Positions 14,898 through 20,259 of a DNA stretch of 20,486 bases are shown piece by piece. The notes below the pieces were generated by a model. That model was not told where the DNA came from. It saw only the letters and a list, made by a program, of their open reading frames with translations, and made no database searches. The stretch lies in the NCBI GenBank assembly GCA_025453925.1, contig JALOPK010000017.1, positions 1-20,486 of the forward strand. Reading direction: 5' to 3'. The stretch comes from Candidatus Eiseniibacteriota bacterium (GTDB taxonomy: Bacteria > JAFGKV01). The position numbers and the translations under genes were made by a program. Position 1 is the first letter of the stretch. Each line of letters opens with the position of its first letter.

Positions 14898-17090
14898 CTA
14901 TTCGGGAGGCAGCTCTGACTCTGCGCGCTCCCGCCCCACCGTGTCGGGATAGAGACAGGGGTCGCGCCGCGCCGCTTCGATGATCGTGAGCCGGTCATTC
15001 GCGGCGTCTCTCCGCGCCGCAACGACCCGGTAGGCGAAGGCGCCTTGGCTCGTCCCGCCCCGTAACTCAATGACCTCGAAGCCGGTGAATGACGGGATGG
15101 CGGCCAGACCCTGGCACGCGGCGTCTTGGGGCTGCACGAAGACCTTGAGCCGATGGGCATCATCTACTGTGACGGTCTCGAGGAACGATGGATCCAGCTC
15201 GACGCGCGCCTTGCCGTGCACGAGGGTGCCCTCGCCGAAATCCTCGACCCAGTTACCGGCCGTCGCCTGGACCCCGAGGGCGGTCGGCCCCCGCGAAGTC
15301 CTCACGATTGATCGCATGGCGCCGCTTCCGGCGAACCCGCCGGAGTAGTACACCCCGAACCCGTCGGGCGAGGCGCTCTCACCATACACGCCATACGTGA
15401 TTCCCGTTGTCGCCGAAACAACGCCGTGCACCCCGCGGCCTGACGTGGATGCGCTCTCGAACTTCCCGCCGTAGGTGGCGCCGGTCGTCGCCGAGGCCAG
15501 GGCATACACCCCTCGTCCCGAAATCGAGGAATTCCCGAACTTCCCGCCGTAGGTCGTGCCTTCTGTCGCACTCGCTTCTCCGTAGACGCCCCGGCCACCC
15601 GTGGCTGCCGTCCAGCCCCCGACGCCATAAGGAGTACCCGTCGTGGCCGGAGCCCGGCCGTAGACTCCCCGGCCGGAGGGGGATGAGGTTTCGCCCCAGA
15701 TGCCGTATGCATAGCCACTGGTGGCCGTGGCAAAACCGTATACCCCATAACCCGAACTGGAGTAGGTCATCCCAAAGACGCCGCGGGCACTGCCGGTTGA
15801 GGATGTTCCTACGCCTCGGACCCCGCTTCCATCCGGTGATGGGCTGATGCCATGGACGCCGGCGGCAGCCCCCACGCTCGAGGAGGCGAGCCCATAGACC
15901 CCGCTTCCACCCGTGGACGCGACCTCGCCTCGCACGCCAACCGGTTCGCCCGTGGTGGCCAGCGCTCTGCCGAGCACGGAGTATCCATTCGGCGAGACCG
16001 AGGTGCCATAGAGGCCGCATGGGGAGCCGGAGCTAGCCGAGTTCTGCCCGTATACGCCGTAGCCAAGGGACGAGAAGCTCTCCCCGTGAACGCCGCAGGT
16101 GACTCCCGAAGTGGCGCTGGCGAGTCCGTGGACCGCGGTGCCCGAGGTGGAGACGCACTGCCCCGACACCGCAACGCCATTTCCGCTCGGGGCGAGGTTG
16201 ATGGCCCGCATGCCATACCCATCGGGTGAATCGCTCTGGCCGATCACGCCGCTTGCCACACTTGTCGTCGCCGATGCCCATCCGTGCACACCGATCCCCT
16301 CGATGGCGCTGGATCTCCCCATCACGCCGACGCCGTACAGCGCCTCCTCCGAGGCCTCGCCGTACACCCCCTCGCCATACTGCCACGTGGTTGCACCGCG
16401 CACTCCCCGATACCCAACGCCGCGCACTCCCGCGCCGCTTGACGACATACTCCTGCCGTAGACGCCCGTCGCCTCGCCGGTGGTTGCCGACGCGTACCCG
16501 TGGACGCCATTGCCCGAGGATGCACAGCTTGTGCCGAACACTCCCGACGGCTGGCCGGAGGTGGCGGTCGCCGTCCCCTTCACGCCACATCCTCCGGTCG
16601 AGTACGCGACGCCTTCCACGGCCGGAGATGCGCCGCCCGCCGCCGTGTTCGTCGCCCTGAACACGGCCTCGCCGCCGACACTGGTCTCCCCGGACACCTC
16701 GGTACCGGGAACAAGGCCGCTCGCCATGTATGCATATGCCGTGGAGCTGATCCGTTGGCGGGGGACCTGGGGGTCGCCGGCGATGGTGACGTCGAGCCAG
16801 CGGTCGCCATCGAAGTCGTCAACGATGGAGGGCTGTGGCGCCTCTCCCAGAAGGGCCGAGAAGACGCCGCCGGTCACGACGACGTCGCGGATGCCGCTGT
16901 CCCACAGCATGGTTCCGCCGATCGCGGCATCGAAGAACCTGAACTGCATGGGGTAGGTGCCGTCAGCCGGCGGGCTGCCGGACGCATCAGCCACTCTGCC
17001 CTGGTAACTGATGACCCGGGGGATCTCGGCGCCGGAGGCCGAGCACAGCGTCGCGGTCAGCGCCGCGGCAGCGAAGACTACGTTTCTCAT
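14898..17090 (-). CDS. Secreted repeat fibre with GVYG 26-residue repeats
   Basis: A 730-residue exported protein. The start at ATG 17090 is chosen because ggagg lies 6 nt upstream and a signal peptide (RNVVFAAAALTATLCSASGA) begins at once; the open frame runs another 64 codons upstream but is Arg/Cys-rich there. The N-terminal head (about 22-130) has the ISYQGRV...DGTYPMQFRFFD pattern seen on many secreted proteins of uncultured bacteria. Residues about 169-586 are roughly sixteen 26-residue units, each a 14-residue (GVYGxASATTGxxY) plus a 12-residue (GVYGxSxSPxGx) half. The C-terminal domain (587-730) has WVEDFGEGTLVHGKARVELD and FEVIELRGGTSQGAFAYRVV, resembling tail-fibre-like ends. I infer an elongated extracellular or surface fibre; function unknown. 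Confidence 0.8.
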   Translation of the reverse strand: MRNVVFAAAALTATLCSASGAEIPRVISYQGRVADASGSPPADGTYPMQFRFFDAAIGGTMLWDSGIRDVVVTGGVFSALLGEAPQPSIVDDFDGDRWLDVTIAGDPQVPRQRISSTAYAYMASGLVPGTEVSGETSVGGEAVFRATNTAAGGASPAVEGVAYSTGGCGVKGTATATSGQPSGVFGTSCASSGNGVHGYASATTGEATGVYGRSMSSSGAGVRGVGYRGVRGATTWQYGEGVYGEASEEALYGVGVMGRSSAIEGIGVHGWASATTSVASGVIGQSDSPDGYGMRAINLAPSGNGVAVSGQCVSTSGTAVHGLASATSGVTCGVHGESFSSLGYGVYGQNSASSGSPCGLYGTSVSPNGYSVLGRALATTGEPVGVRGEVASTGGSGVYGLASSSVGAAAGVHGISPSPDGSGVRGVGTSSTGSARGVFGMTYSSSGYGVYGFATATSGYAYGIWGETSSPSGRGVYGRAPATTGTPYGVGGWTAATGGRGVYGEASATEGTTYGGKFGNSSISGRGVYALASATTGATYGGKFESASTSGRGVHGVVSATTGITYGVYGESASPDGFGVYYSGGFAGSGAMRSIVRTSRGPTALGVQATAGNWVEDFGEGTLVHGKARVELDPSFLETVTVDDAHRLKVFVQPQDAACQGLAAIPSFTGFEVIELRGGTSQGAFAYRVVAARRDAANDRLTIIEAARRDPCLYPDTVGRERAESELPPE
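15333..16586 (-). repeat. Coding repeat array, 78-bp period
   Basis: This is the DNA encoding the 26-residue protein units. The period at protein level is kept with alternating 14 and 12 residues nearly throughout; two units are irregular (around the GVRGVGYRGVRG and INLAPSGNGVAV stretches). At DNA level the copies are well diverged, so the array is old rather than freshly amplified. Confidence 0.8.
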
Positions 17091-17362
17091 CATGGACCTC
17101 CTCATGACATGATACGGGGCACAACAGACGCAAGGCTGAGTATGCGCGGTGCCTCTCACAATCCGCTCACACTCATCGGTCCTCCGCCTTGGCCCGGAAC
17201 CGGCTCGACGTGGAGGTGCCCCTGCAGATCCCCGGGCCGGAAGGTTGCAGGAATGGCACCCTTCGAGCATGTTGACCGGCATTCCACTACAGAACGAGTT
17301 CCCCGCGTGGTTCTCCCGGGCACACCTCTCCCGGATCAGCCGCCGCGGGTCGGGAGGACACG
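17091..17362. other. Divergent intergenic region, fibre gene / TrmB gene
   Basis: Both flanking genes are transcribed away from this 272-bp region, so it must hold two promoters. An imperfect inverted repeat, aaggttgc (17241-17248) with gcaccctt (17256-17263), 7 of 8 positions paired, could be an operator. A ttgacc at 17272 looks like a -35 box, but no matching -10 box follows at 16-18 nt. Confidence 0.45.
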
Positions 17363-18452: not shown

Positions 18453-18824
18453 TTGAGGTTCCTGAAGACATCCTGGTGGGCGAGACTCCCGCAGGGCTTC
18501 GAATTGCAGGCGGTGCTGGACAACCTGAGCGCGCACAAGGGCCCGAGTGTGAAGACGTGGCTGAAGAAACACCCACGCGTCCACTTCCATTTCACTCCTA
18601 CAGGTAGTTCGTGGCTCAATCTCATCGAACGCTGGTTCGGCGAGATCGCCCGCACGCGGATTCGCTGCGGCGTGTTTCAAAGCGTCGCGCAACTCATTTC
18701 CGCCATCAACGACTACTTCGCGGAGAACAATTCAGCTCCGAGACCCTTCATATGGACCAGGGATGCCGACACGATCCTCGCCAGGATCGACCGCTGTGAA
18801 GCGTCTGTTCAGACACTACACTAG
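18453..18824 (+). pseudogene. IS630-type transposase, C-terminal remnant
   Basis: About 123 codons matching the C-terminal third of an IS630-family DDE transposase: VLDNLSAHKGPSVKTWL (second catalytic Asp), HFHFTPTGSSWLNLIERWFGEIARTRI (catalytic Glu), CGVFQSVAQLISAINDYF and PFIWTRDADTIL. The second Asp and the Glu, 36 residues apart, are intact, but the N-terminal DNA-binding part and first catalytic Asp are missing; the frame closes at 18402-18404. Full-length members have roughly 340-360 residues, so this is a dead fragment. I see no inverted repeats flanking it. It abuts the orphan domain downstream. Confidence 0.88.
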
Positions 18825-19141: not shown

Positions 19142-19454
19142 GGTAGGGGAGGTTGCGCCCCACTGCCTTGCCTTGGGGTCTTCGGGTAGTCCCTTCTGCA
19201 GACGATTCTTGCCCGGTGGGTTGAGAATCGATTGACGCATGCCAGGGCGCGGGTTACGTTGCATTCATTGTCTCCTCCGTGGATCTGGCCTGTCAAGGCA
19301 GGTTGCTGGCGTTCACAGAAGCGCCGCGCAGTGCCCGGGAGACGGAATCCTGTGCTCGCCATGCTGGCAGCACGGCCGCACGCTGCCACCTGTGGCGCGC
19401 ACGGGGTAACACTCATTCGAGTGACCAGTGCGGCAGACAGAAGGTGAGGTGCCC
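19142..19454. other. Spacer with possible promoter and hairpin
   Basis: Non-coding. A hairpin (cgattct 19203-19209 with agaatcg 19224-19230) is followed by a possible sigma-70 promoter: ttgacg (19232-19237), 17-nt spacer, tacgtt (19255-19260). The -35 box is good and the -10 box is poor. It would read toward the gene starting at 19455. Confidence 0.35.
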
Positions 19455-19718
19455 ATGAGAGCCATGCTCATCGCGATCCTGATGCTGGCGGCCGTGTCGG
19501 CTCAGGCCGCGCCGGTCTTGGTATGGGATCGAGATAGCGGTGAGACCTTGAATGATCCCCTTGGCGCCGGCATGGTGGGAACTGAGTTCGCCGTGGCCCG
19601 CGCACTTCAGGCCCTGGGTCATCAGGTCACCACTCTCAGCAGTCTCCCGGTCGACCTCAGCGGCTATGACGCGATCTTCGTGCTGACCTCGTGGGGTTGT
19701 TGAGGGGCGAGCAACTAC

Positions 19719-19737
19719 CTTGTGCAGTCTGCACAAG
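19719..19737 (+). promoter_or_regulatory. SECIS-like hairpin downstream of in-frame UGA
   Basis: cttgtgca (19719-19726) pairs perfectly with tgcacaag (19730-19737) around a 3-nt gtc loop. The loop begins 23 nt after the UGA at 19701-19703 and starts with G, both in the range described for bacterial SECIS elements. The apical part closely resembles that of E. coli fdhF (tgcaggtctgca). The bulged U known from fdhF is not present. Confidence 0.4.
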
Positions 19738-20135
19738 TCTCGCTGATCAACTACCTGCAGAGCGGCGGCAGTATCTACTTCGAAGGCACTGAGTTCGGCT
19801 ACTACCATGCCCCCGGAGGAAGCTACAACTACGGGTTGTGGGAGTACCTCGGGACGCAGTTCGGCGGTGACGGAAACCAGGTGAACAACGTCAGCCAGGT
19901 CATCGGCCAAGACCAGTGGTACGGCGCGGCCATGCACTTTGGCTACCCCTACGGCCAGGAACCGGACTACTACGTTGACATCTTCACGCCCTCCGGCGCC
20001 GGAAGTCTCCAGCAGTTCTCCGACCAACTCGACCGGGGGCGCGTGGTCTCCCACGTCGGGGCCACCCGCGGCTATCGGACCATCGTGAGCGGCGTCTGCT
20101 TCTGCGCGTTCTCGGAGAACGCGCCGATGTCCACG

Positions 20136-20259
20136 CAGCAGCGGCTCATGAACCGGATCGTGAACTTCCTGCTCGGCGATGATGCCGTCCCACCGGCCAG
20201 CAGCGGCTCATGAACCGGATCGTGAACTTCCTGCTCGGCGATGATGCCGTCCCACCGGC
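20136..20259. repeat. Perfect 62-bp tandem duplication
   Basis: Bases 20136-20197 and 20198-20259 are identical in all 62 positions. The identity stops at both outer edges (g vs c before, c vs g after). The duplicated stretch encodes QQRLMNRIVNFLLGDDAVPP in the first copy. Because 62 is not a multiple of 3 it changes frame. Confidence 0.97.

Follow-up and report, generated by a model that had tools for sequence, protein, structure and literature searches.

The locus described here raises the question of whether an in-frame UGA, which interrupts the reading frame of a predicted exported protein close to the end of a bacterial contig, is a codon for selenocysteine (Sec) or a coincidental nonsense mutation in a decaying gene. 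Both of these options were put forward in the original prediction, which was made on the window (viz. the whole stretch of 20,486 nucleotides that was analysed). Based on the results presented below, the UGA at positions 19701-19703 very probably (we would put this at roughly 93%) encodes Sec, in a family of exported bacterial selenoproteins that had not been described before. The sequence basis for this reading consists of the conserved UGA, a covarying hairpin downstream of it, purifying selection on both of its sides and complete Sec machinery in the genome; the actual insertion of Sec, the export of the protein and its chemistry are inferred.

The interrupted gene and its surroundings

The features of the window that bear on this question are as follows:

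19440-19449, + strand: Shine-Dalgarno-like gaaggtgagg, read from the sequence, 5 nt upstream of the ATG at 19455
19455-20213, + strand: gene of the putative selenoprotein family, with predicted signal peptide and undescribed alpha/beta domain; the UGA at 19701-19703 is its only interruption before the frameshift from the 62-bp duplication
19455-19511, + strand: predicted signal peptide MRAMLIAILMLAAVSAQAA, based on the sequence and on the same feature in homologues
19698-19700, + strand: Cys codon TGT directly 5' of the UGA; the resulting C-U motif is common to the window and three copies from candidate division TA06
19701-19703, + strand: UGA, candidate Sec codon; same column in six homologous genes, with Sec machinery in the genome
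19719-19737, + strand: candidate bacterial SECIS hairpin, with an 8-bp stem (19719-19726/19730-19737) and the loop GUC (19727-19729)
20136-20259, + strand: exact 62-bp tandem duplication in two copies (20136-20197 and 20198-20259), which shifts the frame and is missing from the intact paralogue L024
20210-20486, + strand: FN3-like tail at the C-terminus of this protein, displaced into another frame, cut off by the contig end and homologous to the tails of the L024 and L027 proteins

The description of this gene in the original prediction, as an exported-protein frame broken by a single UGA right after a Cys and then open for about 170 codons, proved accurate: the context in the window reads ...TSWGC-UGA-GASNY..., and beyond the UGA the frame stays open for 169 codons up to the TGA at 20211-20213. 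The N-terminus of the window protein, MRAMLIAILMLAAVSAQA-AP, reads as a signal peptide, and at the place where the window has gaaggtgagg the intact homologues carry gaggagg or gaaggagg. The domain is complete to residue 247 in the window copy, the 62-bp duplication notwithstanding.

The earlier cautions about a second lesion (i.e. the duplication, which is indeed exact) and about the decaying zone in which the gene lies continue to apply to the window copy. Degenerate transposase remnants are found upstream of this copy, which is close to the contig end, and the duplication lies within about 350 bp of that end. One remnant, at 18453-18824, resembles the C-terminus of an IS630-type transposase (GSSWLNLIERWFGEI; identified by eye only) and adjoins the gene. 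Further away on the minus strand (14898-17282), the window encodes a 794-aa protein with many degenerate repeats (GVYG/GVRG...ATTG motifs).

Conservation of the UGA in homologous genes

Genes with a UGA in the same column were found in three genomes from two phyla. There are six such genes: the genome of the window has two, a congeneric genome has one, and the other three belong to candidate division TA06. The five relatives are 35-63% identical to the window copy. The paralogue from the same genome (L024, on contig C295) is 60% identical; it has a single in-frame UGA in this column, does not have the 62-bp duplication, and its frame is intact through the entire FN3-like tail. The congeneric genome (G001, matched by Candidatus Fermentibacteria Zod_Metabat.355) has one UGA copy (L027). 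Genome G104 has three, which over the domain are 36-42% identical to the window; two of these match contig LJUI01000118.1 of candidate division TA06 bacterium SM23_40. In this TA06 genome two of the putative selenoprotein genes stand in tandem (L058:2444-4998), and the third copy is located elsewhere (L050). The alignment of homologues across the UGA that had been proposed as a check thus gave a uniform result, as all five closest full-length homologues have UGA, and not a sense codon, in this column. In a domain profile search of 386 genomes, no internal stops were seen in about 80 other homologous stretches, and the six UGA genes were the only matches that had one.

The two sides of the UGA appear to be under similar constraint. 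Between L024 and L027, dN/dS is 0.14 before the UGA and 0.14 after it, and between the window copy and L024 the values are about 0.20 and 0.21, with dS near saturation. Since dN/dS is equal before and after the UGA, the part downstream of it is most likely translated and useful.

A related gene fragment is present in genome G002 (L029:1430-1570), where a 5'-truncated copy directly follows fmdB and its homology to the family begins at the Sec site. This copy has AGA in place of the UGA and an intact SECIS hairpin, and it looks like either the loss of the front half of the gene or an assembly joint. In a tree based on 26 domains, in which the labelling of UGA copies left out L143 (the second TA06 copy, on C75), the UGA copies of the Fermentibacteria and of TA06 form two well-supported groups within the same weakly supported half.

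The hairpin downstream of the UGA

The original prediction of a perfect 8-bp hairpin with a G-starting 3-nt loop was borne out; however, its placement 23 nt after the UGA is true of the loop, whereas the perfect stem begins 15 nt past the UGA. The region folds at -16.4 kcal/mol. In the published model of bacterial SECIS elements (PMC13188914), the loop is of 3-9 nt with a G in its first two positions, the stem is of 4-16 bp, the distance from the UGA is 16-37 nt and the minimum free energy is -7.5 kcal/mol or lower. The window hairpin lies within these constraints (3-nt loop GUC, 8 bp, 23 nt, -16.4 kcal/mol; PMC13188914), and the other five hairpins are similar. An Rfam search gave no match.

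A lone hairpin of this type should not be interpreted as a rarity: of the TGAs in the window, about 1.3% have by chance a stem of 8 bp or more, topped by a 3-nt loop that contains G, within the allowed distance. What takes the hairpin far beyond chance is solely that six homologous genes conserve it. All six UGA genes have a hairpin at the same place, with 7-10 bp and 3-nt loops that start with G (GUC, GGC, GGC, GGU, GGC and GGA). In a gap-free alignment of the six genes, the stem pairs are kept in 97.9% of cells, with 12 cells changed on both sides, and one stem pair is seen in all four Watson-Crick combinations (A-U, C-G, G-C and U-A). The hairpin has a covariation score of 0.658, whereas shuffles average 0.193 and none of 500 reaches the observed value; sliding the pairing partners brings the score down to 0.233 or less. 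The pairing is not preserved by the protein sequence, because the codon pairs involved (GTG-CAG, GAG-CAG, GGT-CCG and GCT-CCG) specify different residues, and the observed stems are longer than those given by synonymous-codon shuffles (P from 5e-5 to 0.025 per gene). The hairpin is thus conserved as an RNA structure and not merely as coding sequence, and the earlier description of it as SECIS-like gains support from its conserved position and covariation in the six genes.

A covariance model built from the six hairpins detects a seventh, outside the training set, in the truncated copy of G002 (24.3 bits, E 6e-4), and 96.4% of cells pair once this hairpin is added. The same model misses the hairpins of the two selD genes of the window genome, whose loops are farther from the UGA; the similarity of these hairpins to that of the window was judged by eye and by folding.

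Selenocysteine machinery of the genome

The metagenome-assembled genome containing the window (3.9 Mb, 82% complete) is congeneric with a Candidatus Fermentibacteria genome of the same kind. A search of it for selA, selB, selC and selD had been suggested, with the absence of selB or selC as an outcome that would speak against selenocysteine; all four genes are present. The tRNA-Sec scores 78.8 bits and is called by ARAGORN as tRNA-SeC with anticodon tca, SelB scores 333.9 bits over the full model length, and SelA scores 523.6 bits. There are two selD genes (L018 and L019), both with an in-frame UGA at the canonical site TTAAG-U-AAK and the hairpin GGCGCAG-GUC-CUGCGCC downstream of it. The loop GUC is therefore common to the window hairpin and both UGA-containing selD genes of the same genome, which serve as an internal positive control for this loop in recognised selenoprotein genes. 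A tRNA-Sec was found in all three genomes that have UGA copies. For the family, the selenoprotein option of the original prediction is thus supported by the Sec genes, the UGA column in five homologues and the covarying hairpin.

According to this reading, the hairpin that lies 16-34 nt past the UGA in the mRNA would be the SECIS element, to which SelB together with Sec-tRNA-Sec would bind and deliver Sec at the UGA, and translation would thereby proceed through the domain. In the mature protein, Sec would sit beside a Cys (as C-U, or in the paralogue as U-G-S-C), in a loop that follows a predicted beta-strand. Its most likely role would be extracytoplasmic, in redox or metal/thiol-ligand chemistry.

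Alternative interpretations

If the UGA had arisen by chance as a nonsense mutation, in a gene undergoing decay, with the hairpin a coincidence, then the second lesion, the decaying surroundings and the chance frequency noted above for comparable hairpins would be in keeping with it. However, the alignment of the UGA in a single column across six genes from three genomes and two phyla, the covariation of the hairpin, the purifying selection past the UGA and the lack of other internal stops in the homologues all argue against this possibility; by the evidence of conservation it is already refuted for the family, and for this UGA we regard it as extremely improbable. It is also conceivable that the UGA is read as some other amino acid (e.g. 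Trp, under a changed code) or is passed by general read-through which the hairpin merely assists, as a conserved UGA and a downstream structure could in principle serve programmed read-through. However, UGA is an ordinary stop in 10 of the 16 main genes of the window, for which reason a changed genetic code was rejected; further, the genomes have tRNA-Sec, that of the window combines complete Sec machinery with UGA-selD genes having a hairpin with the same GUC loop, and the neighbouring Cys residues suit Sec better, all of which make this interpretation very unlikely. Lastly, under SelB-dependent decoding, termination at UGA when selenium is scarce is expected for any selenoprotein mRNA, and the UGA with its hairpin could on this account be mainly a selenium-sensing switch, in which read-through serves regulation and most of the product is a short Sec-less protein of 82 residues. 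However, two thirds of the conserved domain lie past the UGA, where purifying selection is the same as ahead of it; because of this the full-length product is what selection appears to see, and the probability of the switch being the main function is minimal.

A different matter is the state of the window copy itself; it bears on this copy alone, and the family can be one of selenoproteins all the same. It is quite possible, although we consider it somewhat less than an even chance, that the window copy is a recent pseudogene whose C-terminal tail has been put out of frame by the 62-bp duplication, and that only the paralogue on C295 is working. The exact tandem duplication with its frameshift, the existence in this genome of a paralogue that is intact and does not have the duplication, and the degenerate transposase remnants upstream are all consistent with this, as is the clearly truncated copy in the related genome G002, which indicates that loss may occur in this lineage. 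However, the N-terminal domain of the window copy retains the residues conserved among close homologues, its dN/dS is low and the domain to residue 247 has remained complete. Further, as the duplication is exact and near the contig end, it may be an assembly error and not decay. The window copy is a diverged paralogue of the intact copy, and may itself be losing its tail via the duplication.

Sequence motifs, predicted fold and origin of selenocysteine

The selenoprotein reading of the family being favoured, its putative Sec site takes three forms, viz. SWGC-U-GAS in the window, W[SG]TG-U-GSC in the paralogue and the congener, and GW[YW]C-U-[GA]G in TA06, and the loops of the UGSC and CU types differ by one residue ahead of Sec. 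In every form a Cys accompanies Sec, immediately ahead of it or at the third position past it, and this is suggestive of either a Se-S redox pair or a metal ligand. An AlphaFold model with four sequences as input (pLDDT 44.6, pTM 0.50) is too poor to name a fold; this low-confidence model shows an alpha/beta domain, with the Sec site in the loop that follows the beta-strand at residues 73-77, and Foldseek gave only weak alpha/beta matches (E of at least 0.02). The C-terminal tails are lineage-specific. The tail of the TA06 proteins matches dozens of other proteins of the same genome (e.g. L093-L114), as would be expected of a surface, sorting or secretion module. In the Fermentibacteria genomes, the intact gene sits after a gene for an fmdB-type zinc ribbon, and in G001 a HypF-like gene (named by eye) is present upstream of it.

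Several observations weigh against the selenoprotein reading, viz. that Cys homologues, which are its classical support, are nearly lacking, that UGA copies are found in three genomes only, that the window copy is frameshifted by its duplication and lies near transposase remnants at a contig end, and that the loops of the two types differ ahead of Sec. Among the homologues, a Cys in the Sec column is seen in just one distant TA06 protein (L092, on a long branch). In another phylum, to which genome G123 belongs, 13 of 14 genomes have a Sec-free homologue (L142, L146-L155) with no Cys at the site, which reads P-x-[DN]-G or is deleted. As the more distant homologues have no Cys there, Sec may have appeared de novo, with no Cys as its ancestor; alternatively, Cys intermediates may be unsampled. 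The fuller account, in which a new selenoprotein family formed on an undescribed exported domain, Sec had no Cys ancestor and the partner Cys moved between C-U and U-x-x-C, is in our view about evenly balanced between being right and wrong. In the usual picture, Sec replaces a redox Cys, and its seeming gain where most relatives are without Cys would contradict this picture.

Comparison with known systems

Most of the bacterial selenoproteins in catalogues either resemble thioredoxin or have homologues among the known thiol enzymes. The present family is predicted to be exported, is found in two candidate phyla and has a domain without a Pfam or NCBIfam model. Sequence searches of Pfam, NCBIfam and PDB with this domain gave nothing significant for the UGA members, and only two distant homologues show weak matches to DUF4960. 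No relatives were seen in viral contigs and plasmids, and we found no paper describing the family in the literature on the selenoproteins of these phyla. Annotation pipelines presumably split such genes at the UGA, and the family would then escape notice in databases.

The family resembles other bacterial selenoproteins that depend on SelB and a bacterial SECIS (e.g. SelD and FdhA) in its in-frame UGA, in the hairpin that follows at 16-37 nt and has a small loop containing G, and in the accompanying selA, selB, selC and selD. It differs from them in that Sec insertion is deduced here from sequence and that the family is none of the 119 selenoprotein families and subfamilies tabulated in a review of 2026 (PMC13188914). 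None of its seven members matches a selenoprotein model of NCBIfam (June 2026) at E <= 10, including NF041046, the UGSC-containing protein family, which is presumed to be in this release. L024 and L027, which read G-U-G-S-C, share the same four residues with NF041046; however, here the motif is in a loop of a longer, putatively exported domain, and four of the six members have C-U instead. The CTP synthase C-terminal region-related selenoprotein (NF004836, of the glutamine-amidotransferase type) possibly has a similar class of alpha/beta fold, as indicated by the weak fold matches, but its profile does not match here, and its motif is GxUxG (PMC13188914) whereas that of the present family is C-U-[GA] or G-U-G-S-C. 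Sec directly after Cys is also known from HgcA, SaoL/MerB-like, KCU-star and SaoC selenoproteins (PMC13188914), with which the present family has only the two-residue C-U motif in common, being unrelated to them by profile search.

The window hairpin can also be compared with the SECIS of E. coli fdhF, and the near-match of their apices and the missing bulged U, both pointed out in the original prediction, hold. The apex of the fdhF element is UGCA-GGUC-UGCA, which that of the window (UGCA-GUC-UGCA) resembles with a loop that is one nucleotide shorter, and the stems of the window and its homologues are without the bulged U. The latter is not required in the general model of bacterial SECIS elements (PMC13188914). 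What is new at this locus is the protein family, and the mechanism is the known one of SelB and SECIS.
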